Both the position numbers and the translations under genes were made by a program. From positions 1 through 47,060 of the forward strand of contig JARGPH010000012.1 in NCBI GenBank assembly GCA_029213065.1: DNA of 47,060 bases, read 5' to 3'. The DNA comes from Verrucomicrobiales bacterium. Lineage in GTDB: Bacteria; Verrucomicrobiota; Verrucomicrobiia; Verrucomicrobiales; DEV007. The notes under the pieces are model-generated. The model was given only the letters and a program-made list of their open reading frames with translations. It had not been told where the DNA came from and searched no databases. Position 1 is the stretch's first letter; every line of letters starts with the position of its first letter. Shown one piece after another: positions 7,493 to 37,098 of this stretch.

Positions 7493-8233
7493 CTAGTTCG
7501 AAGCGGGAATCTTCAAAGTCTGTCCGATCTGCAATGACTCAGGCTTGTTGATGCCATTCGCCTTCATGAGAGAACCGAAAGAAACGTTGAACTGCCTCGC
7601 AATCCCCCACGCGGTGTCACCCTTCTTTACCGAATAGGTGCTTGCGGCACTGGCAGGAGCGCTCTTAGCCGGTGCAGGCTGAGCGACAACCGGAGGCGCG
7701 GCTTTCAACTCGTCTCCTGAAGGGATATCAAGCCAGCGCCCGGGATAGAGTTCGTTGTCAGAAATGATCGCATTCTTCTCGCGAAGCGCCTGCGCCGGCA
7801 CACCGAGTTGTTTGGCAATCTCAGGAAGATTGTCACCGGCCTGGACACGATACTGATCGTCACGTGTCGGGTCGTTACGAAGTGGCGCGGCAACCGGCTT
7901 GGGCTTTGCTACAGCGGGTGCATCGGTGACGCGACTCGCCACTTCTGCATTCTTTTGAACGACATCCTTCACCTCAGTCTTCGAGGAAATCGTGATACCA
8001 CTGACATCGGAAGCCTTGTCGATCATTTTGAAAGCAATGATCCCGCCAATCGCCACCGCGTGAAGCAGCAGGACGACTGTAAAAATTCTTGTTAGACGAA
8101 TGTCAGGAGAATCCAGGTACCAGCCCTGCTCCTCGGTAACATTGGCGGAAAGACGGGTCTTCGCCCGGGCTCTTCCCATTACCCCGTGTCGGGATGTTTT
8201 CGCGGTTCTACGATTTCTTCTCTTGTTGCTCAT
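7493..8233 (-). CDS. Membrane-anchored protein with two LysM domains
   Basis: 246 residues. A basic N-terminus (NKRRNRRTAKTSRHG) precedes one membrane segment at about 50-70 (IFTVVLLLHAVAIGGIIAF), giving an inside-N topology. A linker follows, then LysM 1 (YRVQAGDNLPEIAKQLGV, about 130-175) and LysM 2 (YSVKKGDTAWGIARQFNV, about 200-245). LysM domains bind GlcNAc-containing glycans such as peptidoglycan. No catalytic domain is present, so it may tether the division machinery to the wall. The gene lies between murD and ftsW, where standard dcw clusters have none. Its leader is a CAA-type repeat (8234-8260). Confidence 0.88.
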   Translation of the reverse strand: MSNKRRNRRTAKTSRHGVMGRARAKTRLSANVTEEQGWYLDSPDIRLTRIFTVVLLLHAVAIGGIIAFKMIDKASDVSGITISSKTEVKDVVQKNAEVASRVTDAPAVAKPKPVAAPLRNDPTRDDQYRVQAGDNLPEIAKQLGVPAQALREKNAIISDNELYPGRWLDIPSGDELKAAPPVVAQPAPAKSAPASAASTYSVKKGDTAWGIARQFNVSFGSLMKANGINKPESLQIGQTLKIPASN

Positions 8234-18858: not shown

Positions 18859-19983
18859 ATGCGCCGCCAACTGAGAAACTTTCCCTTCTTTTCCGCCGTT
18901 ATCCTTCTGGCGCTGGTTATCCGTCTCACCACGTCCGGATTGAGCTGGGTCGGGATCGTCGCACTCGTCATCGCCCTTTTCTGGTTCGGTTTTGAATTGA
19001 TCCGCTGGCTCATACCCGAGGAAAAATCCGGAAAGAAGCCTTCAGACAAGTCAGGAAAGCCAAGCCCAAAGCCAAACGACAATCTCGTCTCGCTCGTTTA
19101 CTTCCTCTCCGACCCGAAAAAGGCCGACGAAGATACGGTGCGATCATGCGTCGAGAGCGCACTCGGATTCAAATTCGAATCAGACAATCCCGAGGCCGAA
19201 CATTTCGTGATGCCGTTCCGTGCACCGGACTCCGGCAACGACGAGGACGCCATCCAGCACTTCATGGTGAAGGTTCCCCAGGGGCTCTACGCCGTTCTCG
19301 TCGCAACGAAACCCTACATCGATGACCCGGTCGCCTTTGCGAAAGAATCGATCAAAGACAAGCGACTCCGCAACGCCGTTCAGGAACATCAGGCCTGGCT
19401 CTCAGTGGACCTCATGGACGACACCACTGATCCGGACAAAGTAAACACCGCCTACTCCGTCATCGGCAAAATCCTCGCCTCGATGGCCGGACCGGACTGC
19501 CTCGCGATCTATTGCCCCGAATTACAGCGCTGCAACGAATTCGACCTCGGTCTCATCGAAGTGCTCTCGAGCACCAATCCCCTCGCTCTCTTTGAAGAGC
19601 CCACCTTCGAACCGGTCATCGAGATCGCCGACAACGATCCGAGAATGGCTGCCGCCGTCGAGACCGCAGTGAACCGCTGGCCGGAATTTCGCGAAGCCTA
19701 CGAAAACTGCAGTCCCGACGAGGCGAGCCAGTACATCGTCAAAGCCGAGTTCATCGAAGGCCGCCGCTCTGAATTCATGTGGATCACGGTGACCGAAATC
19801 ACCGACGACGAGATCTGCGGTGTCCTCATGAACGACCCGCACGAGCTCATGGAAGTCCATCGCGGCGTCGACGTCCGCATCCCCATGAACCTCCTCAACG
19901 ACTGGCTCTATCCCGGTAAAGACGGCGACCACATCGGAGGCTTCACCCTCGACGTCCTCGCCGACAGCGCGGGTGATGAGTGA
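18859..19983 (+). CDS. Membrane-anchored DUF2314 domain protein
   Basis: 374 residues. Two hydrophobic segments lie at the N-terminus (about 8-22 and 27-50), followed by a Lys/Ser/Pro linker (EKSGKKPSDKSGKPSPK). The middle region is acidic. The C-terminal about 90 residues (FMWITVTEITDDEICGVLMN, then HRGVDVRIPMNLLNDW and GGFTLDVL) match the DUF2314 pattern of a short beta-barrel-like domain seen in YegJ-type proteins. Function unknown. The membrane anchor with a long acidic middle section is larger than the usual stand-alone DUF2314 protein. Confidence 0.7.
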   Translation: MRRQLRNFPFFSAVILLALVIRLTTSGLSWVGIVALVIALFWFGFELIRWLIPEEKSGKKPSDKSGKPSPKPNDNLVSLVYFLSDPKKADEDTVRSCVESALGFKFESDNPEAEHFVMPFRAPDSGNDEDAIQHFMVKVPQGLYAVLVATKPYIDDPVAFAKESIKDKRLRNAVQEHQAWLSVDLMDDTTDPDKVNTAYSVIGKILASMAGPDCLAIYCPELQRCNEFDLGLIEVLSSTNPLALFEEPTFEPVIEIADNDPRMAAAVETAVNRWPEFREAYENCSPDEASQYIVKAEFIEGRRSEFMWITVTEITDDEICGVLMNDPHELMEVHRGVDVRIPMNLLNDWLYPGKDGDHIGGFTLDVLADSAGDE

Positions 19984-30545: not shown

Positions 30546-31943
30546 ATGAAACGCATTCCCCTATCAATCGCTCTGTCACTGGTCACCGGTTTTTCCGTGT
30601 CACTGAAGGCTGACGCCAACACAAAGCAGCTCTACTCCGATCTCGTCGCTCCGGTTTTGATGGCAAAATGCGCAGGCTGCCACGGCGAGGAGAAACAGAA
30701 AGGAAAACTCCGCATCGATAGTTTCGAAGCCATTCTCAAAGGAGGAAGCGAAGGCGAATCTGTTATTGCAGGTAAGGTCGATGAGAGTTCATTAATCCAG
30801 CGTGTCTACCTTCCCCTCGATGACGATGAGCACATGCCACCGGAAGGCAAAGACCAGCTTTCCGATCAGGAGACCGCGATGATTGCCTTCTGGATCAAAT
30901 CCGGAGCCAAAGAAAAAGGAACCGTCGCAGAACTTAAACCCGACGCAGAAGCCGCAAAAGCAATCGCCCACGTCGCTGACAATCTTCCTGAAATGGAGGT
31001 CAAAGTCGCCAAGGCGGACCGGCCGAAAGCCGACCCCGAAAAGTTGAAGCTCATCGCCGATACCATCGCGAGCGTGGAAAAATCCGGCGCCTCGCTCATG
31101 GCGATCGCGCAGGACACACCGGAGCTCCGCTTCAGTGCCCTCAACGTGAGCAAGGAATACTCCGATGATCAGATCGCGCTTTTGAAGCCGGTCGCCGAAG
31201 ACATCAAATGGATCGACCTCGCGCGCACCAAAGTAACGGACAAAGGACTCGCGCATCTTACGGGAATGAAAAACCTCGCGCGCCTTCACCTCGAGAATAC
31301 CGCGATCACCGATGCCGGCCTCGATTCTCTGAAGGGACTCACCAATCTCGAATACCTCAATCTCTACAACACCGGCATCACCGATGCAGGTCTCGCCAAA
31401 CTGGGCGGATTGAAAAAGCTGAAGAAAGTTTTCGTCTGGCAGAGCAAAGTCACCGACGCCGGCGCAGCCAAATTTGCCGCGGCGATTCCGGGGGTCGATG
31501 TGAACACCGGCTGGAAAGAACCCAAGGCGGAACCTGTGAAACTCGCAGCAGCCGCTCCGGCAAAACCAACGACACCGGCCCCAACCGCTCCAGCCAAGCC
31601 CGCTGCAAAACCCGCTCCGAAGCCAACCACTCCGGCTCCGAAGCCGGCGCCAAAACCAGCACCTAAGCCGACCACACCCGCTCCAAAGCCGGCGCCAAAG
31701 CCAGCCCCAGCAGGAAGAGACATGTTCAACAAAGCGCTCGCAGAACTTCAGGGAGCTGCCGCGGAATCAGCGAAGAAGGCTGCGGCCTCAAAAGCTGAGT
31801 TCGATGCGGCAATCAAAGAAGTCGCCGCGGCAACGAAGAAAGCAGAAGCGCTGAAGGCCTCGTCAGAAAAGGCCGCCAAAGTCGCCGCTGAAACGAAAGC
31901 GGCCCTGACCCAGCTTGAAAAAGCGATCGAGGCCAGTAAGTGA
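30546..31943 (+). CDS. Exported Planctomycete-type cytochrome c with leucine-rich repeats
   Basis: 465 residues. A signal peptide (to about ADA at 23) precedes a PSCyt1 domain with the heme motif CAGCH (Cys42, Cys45, His46) and HMPPEGKDQLSDQE. Around 220-325 there are at least four leucine-rich repeats (LARLHLENTAITDAGLDSLK, then LEYLNLYNTGITDAGLAKLG). A Pro/Ala/Lys stretch (about 335-390, repeats of APKPAPKP) and a C-terminal Lys/Ala coiled coil end the protein. PSCyt1 occurs in PVC proteins of unknown catabolic role. The combination suggests a periplasmic redox scaffold; this is inference. Confidence 0.85.
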   Translation: MKRIPLSIALSLVTGFSVSLKADANTKQLYSDLVAPVLMAKCAGCHGEEKQKGKLRIDSFEAILKGGSEGESVIAGKVDESSLIQRVYLPLDDDEHMPPEGKDQLSDQETAMIAFWIKSGAKEKGTVAELKPDAEAAKAIAHVADNLPEMEVKVAKADRPKADPEKLKLIADTIASVEKSGASLMAIAQDTPELRFSALNVSKEYSDDQIALLKPVAEDIKWIDLARTKVTDKGLAHLTGMKNLARLHLENTAITDAGLDSLKGLTNLEYLNLYNTGITDAGLAKLGGLKKLKKVFVWQSKVTDAGAAKFAAAIPGVDVNTGWKEPKAEPVKLAAAAPAKPTTPAPTAPAKPAAKPAPKPTTPAPKPAPKPAPKPTTPAPKPAPKPAPAGRDMFNKALAELQGAAAESAKKAAASKAEFDAAIKEVAAATKKAEALKASSEKAAKVAAETKAALTQLEKAIEASK

Positions 31944-32693: not shown

Positions 32694-33908
32694 ATGAGAA
32701 TTGCTTTTTTGACCGCCGGGGGCATTGCTCCCTGTCTTTCTGCCTCCATCGGTGGCTTGATTGAACAATACAATAAGTTGGCACCCGAGGCTGATTTGAT
32801 GGGATATCTGAATGGCTACCAGGGCCTTCTCCTCGGGAAATCCTACCACTTTCCACCTGAAGTGCGTAAAAACGCTGAAGTCTTTTACAACTTCGGAGGA
32901 AGCCCGATCGGCAACAGCCGCGTTAAGCTCACAAACGTAGCCGATTGCACCAAGCGCGGACTCGTTAAGCCCGGTGAAGAACCTCTCAAAGTGGCCGCTG
33001 ACCGGCTCATCGCAGACGGCGTCAACATCCTCCACACCATCGGTGGCGATGACACCAACACAACCGCAGCCGACCTCGCTGCCTATTTGAAGGAAAACAA
33101 CTACGACCTCACCGTGGTGGGCCTTCCCAAAACGATCGACAACGACGTTTTTCCGATCAAACAAACCCTCGGTGCCTGGACCGCAGCTCATCAGAGCGCC
33201 CGTTTCTTCCGCAACGTCGCGAACGAAAACACTACCAGTGCCCGCCAGCTCATTATTCACGAAGTGATGGGTCGTCACTGCGGATGGCTCACCGGTCGCG
33301 CTGCCTACGAGTATCACGAGAGCCTTCACCAGTATGACTGGATGCCTGAAGCACTCCTCCACCAGTTGCGCTGGGATGTCGATGCCGTCTGGGTTCCGGA
33401 AATGGAAATCGATCTCGAGTCCGAGATTGAACGTCTCAACGACAAAATGGATGAGCACGACAGCGTTAACATTTTCCTCAGTGAAGGAGCCGGCCTCGAC
33501 AACGTCGTCGCTGAACTCAAAGCACAGGGCAAAGAGCCTGAAAAGGACGCCTTCGGTCACTACCGTCTTGACGATGTCAACGTCGGCAACTGGTTCTCCA
33601 ACCAGTTGAAAGAGAGACTGGGAGCTGAGAAAGTGCTTATTCAGAAGAGCGGTTATTTCGCACGAAGTGCTGCACCGAACGCCGATGATCTCGAACTCAT
33701 CAAAGCGAGTTGCGCACAGGCCGCCAAGTCGGCACTTGAAGGTGTCAGCGGTGTCGCCGGTCTCGACGAAGACAACAACGACGAGATGAGCACAATCGCC
33801 TTCCCCCGCATCAAAGGCGGCAAGCCGTTCGACATCGACGAGAGCTGGTTCACCAACCTCCTCGTGGAAATCGGCCAGCCCAAGGGCAAGCGAATCGAAG
33901 CGCATTGA
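32694..33908 (+). CDS. pfp: Pyrophosphate-dependent 6-phosphofructokinase
   Basis: 404 residues. The N-terminus has IAFLTAGGIAPCLSASIGG. At residues 117-120 the loop is GGDD; in ATP-dependent enzymes the corresponding sequence is GGDGS, and Asp at this point is the accepted mark of PPi use. PKTIDND (145-151) has the catalytic Asp and the Lys that favours PPi. HEVMGRHCGW (about 185) binds fructose 6-phosphate. The enzyme phosphorylates fructose 6-phosphate reversibly with PPi. It is followed by the PPDK gene, which also handles PPi. It ends in a clear terminator. Confidence 0.95.
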   Translation: MRIAFLTAGGIAPCLSASIGGLIEQYNKLAPEADLMGYLNGYQGLLLGKSYHFPPEVRKNAEVFYNFGGSPIGNSRVKLTNVADCTKRGLVKPGEEPLKVAADRLIADGVNILHTIGGDDTNTTAADLAAYLKENNYDLTVVGLPKTIDNDVFPIKQTLGAWTAAHQSARFFRNVANENTTSARQLIIHEVMGRHCGWLTGRAAYEYHESLHQYDWMPEALLHQLRWDVDAVWVPEMEIDLESEIERLNDKMDEHDSVNIFLSEGAGLDNVVAELKAQGKEPEKDAFGHYRLDDVNVGNWFSNQLKERLGAEKVLIQKSGYFARSAAPNADDLELIKASCAQAAKSALEGVSGVAGLDEDNNDEMSTIAFPRIKGGKPFDIDESWFTNLLVEIGQPKGKRIEAH

Positions 33909-34068: not shown

Positions 34069-34096
34069 TTGACAGGATCGCAGTCGCGCTTAAAGT
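34069..34096 (+). promoter_or_regulatory. Predicted promoter of PPDK
   Basis: A perfect TTGACA (34069-34074) and TAAAGT (34091-34096), 16 bp apart. The leader to the ATG at 34252 would be about 150 nt. Confidence 0.55.
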
Positions 34097-34251: not shown

Positions 34252-37098
34252 ATGGCGACCAAAAAAACTGCAAAGAAAGCTGCCTCAAAAAAGGCAACCA
34301 AGAAAGCACCTGCCCGTGCTAAAAAACTCGTTTACTACTTCGGGGCTGGAAAGTCCGATGGTAACGGCACACAGAAAGCCCTCCTCGGCGGTAAAGGTGC
34401 AAACCTTGCTGAGATGGCAAGCATCGGGCTCCCCGTGCCTGCTGGAATGACGATCACCACAGAGGTTTGCAACCACTACTACGACAATGGTTGTAAATGG
34501 CCTGCTGATCTGAAGAGACAAGTTGAAGCCAACATCGCCAAGATCGAAAAGGCGATGGGTAAGAAGTTCAACAACCTCGACAACCCGCTTCTCCTCTCGG
34601 TTCGTTCCGGTGCTCGTGAGTCGATGCCCGGTATGATGGACACGATTTTGAACCTCGGTATCAACGATGAAGTTGCTGAGGCTCTCGCCAAGAAAACAGG
34701 CAACCCGACTTTCGCATGGGACAGCTACCGTCGCTTTCTCCAGATGTATGGAGAAGTCGTCATGGGCGTGGAAGAGCACGAAGGTGAGCACCACGATCCA
34801 TTCGAAGTGATCCTCGACGCAGCTAAAGCCAAGCGTGGCGTGGCTAATGATTCCGACCTGAGCGAAGACGAACTCAAGTGGGTTGTTGCCGAATTCAAAA
34901 AGCTCATCAAAGAGCGTACCGGTAATGACTTCCCAACTGATCCAATGGAGCAGTTGATTGGTTCCGTGAACGCCGTTTTCAATTCATGGCAGAACGACCG
35001 CGCTAAAGTTTACCGCCAGAAATACGGGATCCCTGCTGCATGGGGAACCGCTGTAAACGTTCAGGCGATGGTATTCGGTAACACCGGTAAAAAATCAGGA
35101 ACAGGTGTGGCCTTCACACGTGACCCTGCTACCGGTGAAAACGTTTTCTACGGTGAGTATCTCATCGACGCCCAGGGCGAAGACGTTGTTGCCGGTGTTC
35201 GCACACCTAAGCAGGTTGCGGAAATGGCGAAGGACCTTCCCAAGTCACACAAAGAGCTGCTCAAAGTTCGCAACATTCTTGAAAAGCACTTCCGTGACGT
35301 TCAGGACGTTGAGTTCACGATCGAAGACGGGAAACTCTGGATGCTCCAGACCCGTAACGGTAAGCGCACCGGTTTCGCTGCGGTTAACATCGCAATCGAC
35401 ATGGTTCGCGAGAAACTCATCAGCAAGGAAGAGGCAATTATGCGCATTCCTGCTGATGACCTCAGCCACCTCCTCGCTCCAATCTTCGACGCCGCTGACG
35501 AGAAGCAGGCTAAGAAAATGGGATCCGGCCTTCCTGCTGGACCAGGTGCAGCTTCAGGTAAGATCTACTTCTCTGCTGAAGAGTCAGTAGCGGCTGAAGC
35601 TCGTGGTGAGAAAGTCATGCTCGTTCGCATGGCGACTTCTCCTGAAGATCTTCGCGGAATGATCGCTGCTGAGGGTATCCTCACAACCGAAGGTGGTGCT
35701 TCATCACACGCGGCACTCGTTGCCCGTCAGATGGGTAAAATCTGCGTTTGTGGTGCTCACGGCATGACAATCGATTACAAGAAGAAGACGCTCTCCGGCA
35801 ACGGAATCACTTTGAAAGAAGGCGATGAGCTCTCCCTCAACGGATTCGTTGGAAACGTCTATGCCGGTGCGATCAAGTCGTCACCATCACAGGTTATCCA
35901 GGGTCTTATCGAAGGCAAAGCAGCTGCGAAGAAGTCTGACACTTACAAGAAGTTCGTCGAGCTCATGGAGTGGACCGACACTCACCGCAAGCTTGGTGTT
36001 CGCACCAACTCGGACACACCCGAGCAGGTTCGCCAGGCGATCCTCTTCGGCGGTGAAGGCATCGGCCTGACTCGTTCAGAGCACATGTTCTTCGAAGGCA
36101 ACCGCATCGACGCCGTTCGTGAGATGATTCTCGCTAACGACGACGAAGGTCGCGCCAAGGCTCTCAAAAAGATCAAAGCGTTCCAGAAGAAAGACTTCAT
36201 CGGTATCTTCGAAGCTCTCGAAGGCCGCCCTGCTACGATCCGTCTTCTCGATCCACCACTTCACGAGTTCATCGGCACCATGGACGCCGCTCAGAAGAAA
36301 GATCTCTCCAAGAAGATCGGCATGAGCGCTGCAGCGATCACCAAGCGAATCAATTCTCTTCACGAAGAGAACCCGATGCTTGGTCACCGTGGTTGCCGTC
36401 TCGGTATCAGCTACCCTGCAGTGACTGCAGCACAGGTTGAAGCGATCCTCGAAGCCGCTGCTGAAGTGCAGGCCAAAGGCACCAAAGTTCTCCCTGAGAT
36501 CATGGTTCCTCTCGTTGCCTACGCACGTGAGCTTGAGCTCCAGAAGGAAGTCATCGACGAAGCCGCTGCCGGTGTTCGTAAGAAATACGGTCTTAAGAAG
36601 TCCGAGTTGAAATACACCGTCGGAACCATGATCGAGATTCCACGCGCTGCCCTCACCGCTGATGAAGTGGCGAAGCACGCTGAGTTCTTCTCATTCGGAA
36701 CCAACGACCTCACGCAGACCGGCCTCGGTCTTTCACGTGATGACTCCTCTTCATTCCTTCCTACCTACCAGGACGCTGAAGTGCTTAACAACAACCCATT
36801 CGCCGGTCTCGACCAGGAAGGTGTTGGCCAGCTCGTTGAGATGGGTGTTAAGAAAGGTCGCGAGACGAAGAGAAGCCTCAAAATCGGTATCTGCGGCGAG
36901 CACGGCGGAGATCCTGATTCTGTGAAGTTCTTCCACCGCACCGGACTCAACTATGTTTCCTGCTCACCTTTCCGCATCCCAATCGCACGCCTTGCAGCAG
37001 CACAGGCAGCGCTCGAAGAGAAGCCTCTCAAGGCAGCTCCCAAGAGGAAGGCAGCGAAAAAGAAAGCCGCTAAGAAAAAGACTGCTTCGAAGAAGTAA
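34252..37098 (+). CDS. ppdK: Pyruvate, phosphate dikinase with lysine-rich tails
   Basis: 948 residues from the ATG at 34252, preceded by AAGGAAGCATCCAAAGAG; the reading frame opens earlier but would start inside the promoter. Nucleotide-binding N-terminal domain: [20 protein letters not shown] and [17 protein letters not shown]. Phosphohistidine domain: [13 protein letters not shown] with His486. The C-terminal PEP/pyruvate barrel includes [22 protein letters not shown] and catalytic Cys in [10 protein letters not shown]. Converts PEP, AMP and PPi to pyruvate, ATP and Pi, reversibly. Lys/Ala tails occur at both ends ([19 protein letters not shown] and [18 protein letters not shown]), unlike typical PPDK. 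Codons end in T more often than in neighbouring genes (GCT, GGT, GTT, CGT), the mark of high expression. Confidence 0.96.

Follow-up and report, generated by a model that had tools for sequence, protein, structure and literature searches.

Introduction

Pyruvate,phosphate dikinase (PPDK) is a known enzyme, and tails like those of histone H1 are already known on bacterial DNA proteins. The PPDKs of trypanosomes and plants have organelle targeting signals instead of such tails, and the best-matching solved chain, 1KBL from Clostridium symbiosum, covers the core only. Basic extensions do occur on other proteins. The appended N-terminal domain of eukaryotic lysyl-tRNA synthetase, for example, is basic. 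This disordered extension of the enzyme becomes ordered upon tRNA binding (PMC6213541); it belongs to a different enzyme of another kingdom, and is likened to the PPDK tail by description.

Among bacterial proteins, PAKK/KAAK-type repeats are appended to the folded domains of actinobacterial HupB, Ku and topoisomerase I, and the excerpts of the source state that they strengthen the DNA binding of HupB (PMC5676037). These are DNA proteins with C-terminal tails, whereas PPDK is a metabolic enzyme, and its tail can sit at the N end or the C end. AlgP and PhaF of Pseudomonas have disordered K/A/P-rich tails of the histone H1 type and are associated with granules or DNA, and KPAA peptides of AlgP bind DNA, as described in the excerpts of PMC9239181. 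Their tails are, however, far longer (the median for the N-terminal tail of PPDK is 26.5 residues) and sit on a small helical protein that is not an enzyme.

Here, we describe a PPDK with lysine- and alanine-rich tails at both ends, encoded in a window of 47,060 nucleotides (contig JARGPH010000012.1 of the Verrucomicrobiales assembly GCA_029213065.1, called the source genome below). We compare it with its relatives, and also with other tailed proteins of the source genome. We will argue that the tails possibly tether the enzyme to a polyanion, and that the rival explanations are less probable.

Results and Discussion

The PPDK gene (34252-37098, + strand) encodes 948 residues, with an ATG at 34252 and the stop codon at 37096-37098. 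The longer frame that a TTG opens at 34069 is unlikely to be the gene, because the frames of the relatives start at the position equivalent to the ATG. The NCBI equivalog model TIGR01828 identifies the product as pyruvate,phosphate dikinase with 1251.4 bits (cut-off 843.45), the model being matched over positions 1-865 of 865. As this whole model is accommodated by residues 24 to 921, both tails fall outside the family model. The catalytic core, residues 26-922 (34327..37017, + strand), starts at residue 24-27 and ends near 921-924, and has the PPDK_N, PEP-utilizers and PEP-utilizers_C domains (PF01326, PF00391, PF02896) in the three-domain order of PPDK, that is, nucleotide-binding domain, phosphohistidine domain and PEP/pyruvate barrel. 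Homology to 1KBL extends over residues 35 to 924 (1041 bits), with the same domain order and with conserved regions around the catalytic His and Cys. H486 and C881 are invariant in a 34-row alignment; after the C. symbiosum enzyme, we take them to be the catalytic His of the mobile domain and the Cys of the barrel. The AlphaFold2 model calculated with the 34-row alignment is confident for the core (mean pLDDT 89). Judged by its sequence, the part of the protein that carries the tails is a canonical, otherwise ordinary PPDK core.

The N-terminal tail comprises residues 1-25 (34252..34326, + strand), with ten K, one R and no D or E, and is predicted to be disordered (pLDDT <50 for residues 1-21). 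The C-terminal tail, residues 923-948 (37018..37095, + strand), was delimited from the sequence and the AlphaFold2 model, in which it is a low-confidence helix that prolongs the last core helix; the last 25 residues contain 13 K+R and again no D or E. Compared to the 1KBL chain and TIGR01828, which are core only, the window's enzyme thus adds ca 25 and 26 basic residues, and this confirms the Lys/Ala tails that the original prediction had placed at the two ends. Their composition is of the histone H1 type (K/A/P-rich, disordered), with the helix modelled at low confidence for the C-terminal one. The Lys codons are mixed (seven AAA and three AAG in the N-terminal tail, three AAA and nine AAG in the C-terminal one), as are those for Ala, which shows that the tails are not a simple repeat at the DNA level. 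The HC2 profile of histone H1-like bacterial proteins (PF07382), run against the source genome at E values up to 10, matched contigs C66, C44 and C65 and nothing at PPDK, and a protein search with the tails as query returned PPDK only, probably due to their low complexity.

The suggestion that the protein is abundant, originally drawn from the codon pattern, receives indirect support, as the effective number of codons of PPDK, 38.9, is the third lowest among the 385 ORFs of the sample. The second strongest codon bias of the same 385 ORFs belongs to a DUF2314 protein, also located in the window (18859-19983).

We now turn to the conservation of the tails. At the default threshold, the PPDK query has a match in 71 of the 74 genomes of the window's family, many of the matches being related PEP-utilizing enzymes only. 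The family sample consists of 60 loci that contain a PPDK gene or part of one, and a few of these are pieces from the same genome; 17 rows are unreadable at one end and 43 are readable at both. For the class, 245 of 286 genomes, including the source genome, match at E values up to 1e-150, and beyond the family one gene per genus was taken for 128 further genera, of which 119 are readable at both ends. The first 80 of these class rows were the top ones among the matches listed for a query that included the tails. Then, 40 genomes absent from that list (39 new genera) were searched with the core alone, and eight further listed genera were added. Left out of the class count were the nine rows unreadable at one end, a second row of one genus (L303), eight of the nine rows of genus g19, all tailless, and two parts of split genes (L337 and L348), which served only to supply the C-tail states of L336 and L334.

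In each gene, the ATG closest to the conserved VYxF, but separated from it by at least a few residues, served as the start codon, a rule that tends toward the shortest tail. To be scored as a tail, an end needed at least 12 residues at the N-terminus or at least 6 at the C-terminus, at least four of them K or R, with a net charge per residue of 0.2. These cut-offs were chosen after the sequences had been viewed, and three genes with borderline basic C ends (L300, L319, L172) were scored as tailless.

With this definition, at least one basic tail is found in 40/43 genes of the family (13 with both tails, 26 N only, 1 C only, 3 neither) and in 111/119 of the other class genera (31 both, 56 N only, 24 C only, 8 neither). 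The original prediction had named absence from all relatives as an outcome that would refute it; instead, most PPDKs of the class carry a tail, and tails confined to the source genome are ruled out by the tailed enzymes of family and class. That prediction had also known of no described PPDK with both tails. We likewise found no description of lysine tails on PPDK among the listed titles and abstract beginnings of the open-licence literature, but as forms of the enzyme those with two tails are common here, as the counts above show. What seems new, within the scope of these titles and abstract beginnings, is that a glycolytic enzyme has histone H1-like tails throughout a bacterial class.

The tails vary considerably. 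Among the PPDKs read, between 4 and 114 residues precede the conserved VYxF, and the 144 N-terminal extensions of at least 12 residues (g19 left out) have lengths of 12-114 with a median of 26.5. They consist of 33% K, 24% A, 10% S, 7.5% T, 6.5% P and 4% R, and D and E together amount to only 0.8%. On this sequence evidence, the tail is conserved as a composition (K/A/S/T/P), while its length and sequence vary. It is important to point out that tailless enzymes also exist. All nine genomes read of genus g19 have a PPDK without tails, and this genus either lost the tail or never had one; besides g19, three genes of the family and seven other genera have a tailless enzyme.

The N- and C-terminal tails tend toward mutual exclusion over the 119 genera (Fisher p 1.7e-4; Spearman -0.48, on raw counts). 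A summed net tail charge below 4 is found in four genes, as compared to 13.0 expected when the C tails are shuffled, and none of 5000 shuffles was as low. On a FastTree tree of 173 core sequences, 160 of them with both traits, the minimum number of changes by parsimony is 24 for the N tail, 33 for the C tail and 9 for the trait "any tail". However, the independent-pairs test on this tree does not yield a significant reciprocity (median p 0.45 and 0.38). Within the family alone, Fisher's test gives p 1 and the shuffles no charge deficit, with a Spearman coefficient of -0.34 (p 0.03). A reciprocity of the two ends is therefore not established as an evolutionary rule. Since related genes share tails and the independent pairs are not significant, the sequences only suggest that the tail is independent of position, at the N or the C end.

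In addition, we considered 64 named relatives, sorted by us into Verrucomicrobiota and others according to the title of the record. The 35 placed outside have mostly neither tail (26), with three C only, two N only and four unreadable at one end. The 29 placed inside comprise 11 N only, 4 C only, 4 both, 4 neither and 6 unreadable at one end; they include two records titled only "bacterium" (L064 and L084), a Kiritimatiellales MAG (L075), and a gene titled Klebsiella pneumoniae (L107), which was grouped here because of its 61% identity. Two of the C-tailed outsiders (L082, L120) have only a short basic end, and that of the third (L089, titled Hydrogenedentota) is long. L072 and L098, the two outsiders with an N tail, share 60-61% identity with the window's PPDK and may be misbinned or transferred. 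More generally, the PPDKs titled Klebsiella pneumoniae (L107), Vicinamibacterales (L072) and Kuenenia (L098) are Verrucomicrobiota-like at 60-61% identity, and the titles or bins of these records may be wrong.

Next, the rarity of such tails was estimated in the source genome. In 310,733 bases (244 ORFs; the window plus 20 contig-start stretches), a basic-end filter was passed by three N ends and two C ends, and by both ends in PPDK only. With 704,841 bases (570 ORFs) the numbers are five and four, and PPDK is again the only protein with both. This enlarged set is not random, as several of its 20 added stretches were chosen for matches to RpoD, the dehydrogenase discussed below or pyruvate kinase, and others for PEP-utilizing enzymes or polyphosphate kinase. 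One end only passes in RNase R (C end), RpoD, the dehydrogenase and a few others of the 570 ORFs.

A search for the DNA pattern of KK[ATPS][ATPS]KK gave 19 hits in the source genome, as compared to 10 in the reversed control; four of the 19 sit in chance-like frames (25, 53, 64 and 197 codons), and since tails with other spacing are missed, the tally of carriers is a minimum. PPDK itself accounts for three hits. The other carriers are RpoD, with a long K/A/S/T/P-rich N tail (L353:8804-10699, on the same contig ca 12 kb beyond the end of the window), a DksA-like protein (N tail), a topoisomerase III-like protein (C tail), MutS (near the C end), a protein like subunit A of gyrase/topoisomerase IV (C tail, at a contig end), a K/A-repeat ORF at the start of another contig, an ORF without family match, and a β-hydroxyacid dehydrogenase with tails at both ends (L369:8388-9386, corresponding to C16:63388-64383 of the source genome). 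Basic tails are accordingly rare in this genome and their other carriers are mostly DNA or RNA proteins, and the pattern counts together with the scarcity of filter passes rule out a proteome-wide habit.

A few further observations were made along the way. The end of contig C65 and the start of C66 have a similar K/A repeat, and are perhaps the two halves of one gyrase/topoisomerase IV subunit A gene split by the assembly. A long ORF at C2:223.8k (L133), for which a search for NCBIfam matches at 1e-10 found none, combines extended, acidic E/A stretches with one short KKSAKKAAKKK segment. In the window, a PSCyt1 cytochrome with leucine-rich repeats (30546-31943) has a long proline/lysine linker of the PAPKPTTPAPK type, and a LysM protein (7493-8233, - strand) has a basic N-terminus ahead of a probable membrane segment.

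The dehydrogenase fits PF03446/PF14833 and scores below the cut-off of every specific model listed. It is matched in 64 of 74 family genomes. Among the 30 copies that match best, the N extension is basic in 28 and the C end in 29, the exceptions being L281 and L283, with only MSKKR before the core, and L264, whose frame ends otherwise. Many of the remaining matches have ca 300 codons and are core only, and are hence probably without tails. A precedent for a dehydrogenase fold tied to chromatin, although not for PPDK, is GLYR1/N-PAC, a nucleosome-associated β-hydroxyacid dehydrogenase that uses other DNA-binding modules. In a complete genome from another family of the class (G293), the pattern marks PPDK, a K/A frame of 88 codons, a frame of 183 codons whose C end is K/A, one doubtful frame, and a CTP synthase with a C-terminal Lys/Ala tail (L294, C1 near 3794340). 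The presence of such tails on the dehydrogenase and on CTP synthase means that the tail is not specific to PPi chemistry.

The adjoining PPi-dependent phosphofructokinase (32694..33908, + strand; NF005121, 642.7 bits), whose gene neighbours that of PPDK in 14 of 60 family loci including the window's, many other loci ending early, is tailless. So is the full-length pyruvate kinase at C21, which likewise makes pyruvate from PEP and is the copy whose ends were read; the source genome has partial matches at C47 and C44 in addition. As a pyruvate kinase match is present in 36 of 37 genomes, including the source genome, there is no support for PPDK as the substitute of an absent pyruvate kinase.

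What, then, could the tails do? The reading we prefer, to which we assign a probability of roughly 0.45, is that they are disordered electrostatic tails, usable at either end, that tether PPDK to a polyanion, most likely nucleic acid. An intrinsically disordered, basic tail at the N or C end of a probably abundant PPDK would hold the enzyme to nucleoid DNA, nascent RNA, tRNA or ribosomes. The originally proposed binding to an anionic polymer is supported indirectly by the composition, by a charge that is kept as the sequence varies, by the placement of tails at the N or the C end and by the other tailed proteins of the source genome. That most class relatives keep a histone-like tail at one end or the other indicates that PPDK is probably tied to a polyanion, and since most of the named carriers in the source genome work on DNA, RNA or RNA polymerase, a nucleic-acid tether is the simplest reading; we infer nucleic-acid binding by the PPDK tails from their sequence and from these other tailed proteins. 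What counts against the tether is the existence of the tailless PPDKs in g19, the family and the other genera.

A more specific version holds that selection throughout the class keeps at least one histone H1-like tail and that the abundant PPDK turns the AMP and PPi from tRNA charging and polymerases into ATP at the nucleoid or at translating RNA. Held near RNA or DNA, the enzyme would clear the AMP and PPi made there and return ATP. We regard this version as doubtful. According to the excerpts of a study on Clostridium thermocellum (PMC7657619), the AMP and PPi released when tRNA is charged can serve as substrates of PPDK, but biosynthetic PPi is too little to sustain a large glycolytic flux, and deletion of PPDK changed little in batch culture. 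By analogy, this PPi shortfall and the dispensable PPDK count against the recycling idea.

Another explanation is that the tails have no binding partner, and are either an aid to expression or solubility, through Lys codons after the start and charged ends, or near-neutral low-complexity ends that are gained and lost over time. The high plasticity of tail length and sequence (4 to 114 residues before VYxF), the strong codon bias of PPDK, similar to that of highly expressed genes, the at least 24 N-tail and at least 33 C-tail state changes by parsimony, and the occurrence of tailless enzymes are all in line with this. However, a start-codon effect cannot account for the C-only tails of 24/119 genera, and neutral ends would hardly contain as little as 0.8% acidic residues throughout the sample, or spare pyruvate kinase and PPi-dependent phosphofructokinase; nor would one then expect PPDK to be alone, among 570 ORFs, in having both ends basic by the filter. 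The existence of C-only tails and the scarcity of D and E thus weaken the case for an origin through neutrality or expression alone, which we consider unlikely.

The tails might instead bind inorganic polyphosphate, seat PPDK on polyphosphate granules and link PPi metabolism to the polyphosphate store. AlgP, with its histone H1-like KPAA tail, sits on such granules in Pseudomonas aeruginosa (excerpts of PMC9239181), and the lysine-rich regions of two E. coli proteins, YihI and RNase R, bind polyphosphate (excerpts of PMC12345225). The source genome has a polyphosphate kinase, and the sole genome of 37 without a match to this kinase (G197) has a tailless PPDK. On the other hand, the kinase is found in the other 36 whether PPDK is tailed or not, and in 7/7 checked genomes of the tailless genus g19. 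It does not track the tail, and its presence is ruled out as the explanation for the tails. Furthermore, PASK-type polyphosphate-binding motifs are acidic, serine- and lysine-rich, and the PPDK tails, with no D or E in the first and last 25 residues, lack the acidic residues of such motifs. Taken together, a polyphosphate tether seems rather improbable.

Finally, binding to acidic proteins or anionic membrane lipids, or condensation with acidic partners, with nucleic acid being incidental, is quite improbable, since similar tails elsewhere are described as DNA or polyphosphate binders in the excerpts of PMC9239181 and PMC5676037, although the ORF with long acidic stretches at C2:223.8k would be a conceivable partner class.

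Conclusion

Should the tether to a polyanion be real, bacteria of a large environmental group would localize a core step of glycolysis by a charge tail of the type that packs chromosomes, and this would be a simple case of bacterial metabolism organized around nucleic acid or polyphosphate. Constructs or annotations that trim the ends of PPDK may then cut off a functional part. If, in addition, the on-site recycling of AMP and PPi is true, glycolysis would be spatially coupled to information processing in these organisms, through a tail type that PPDK has in common with RpoD, MutS, the topoisomerases and the DksA-like protein.
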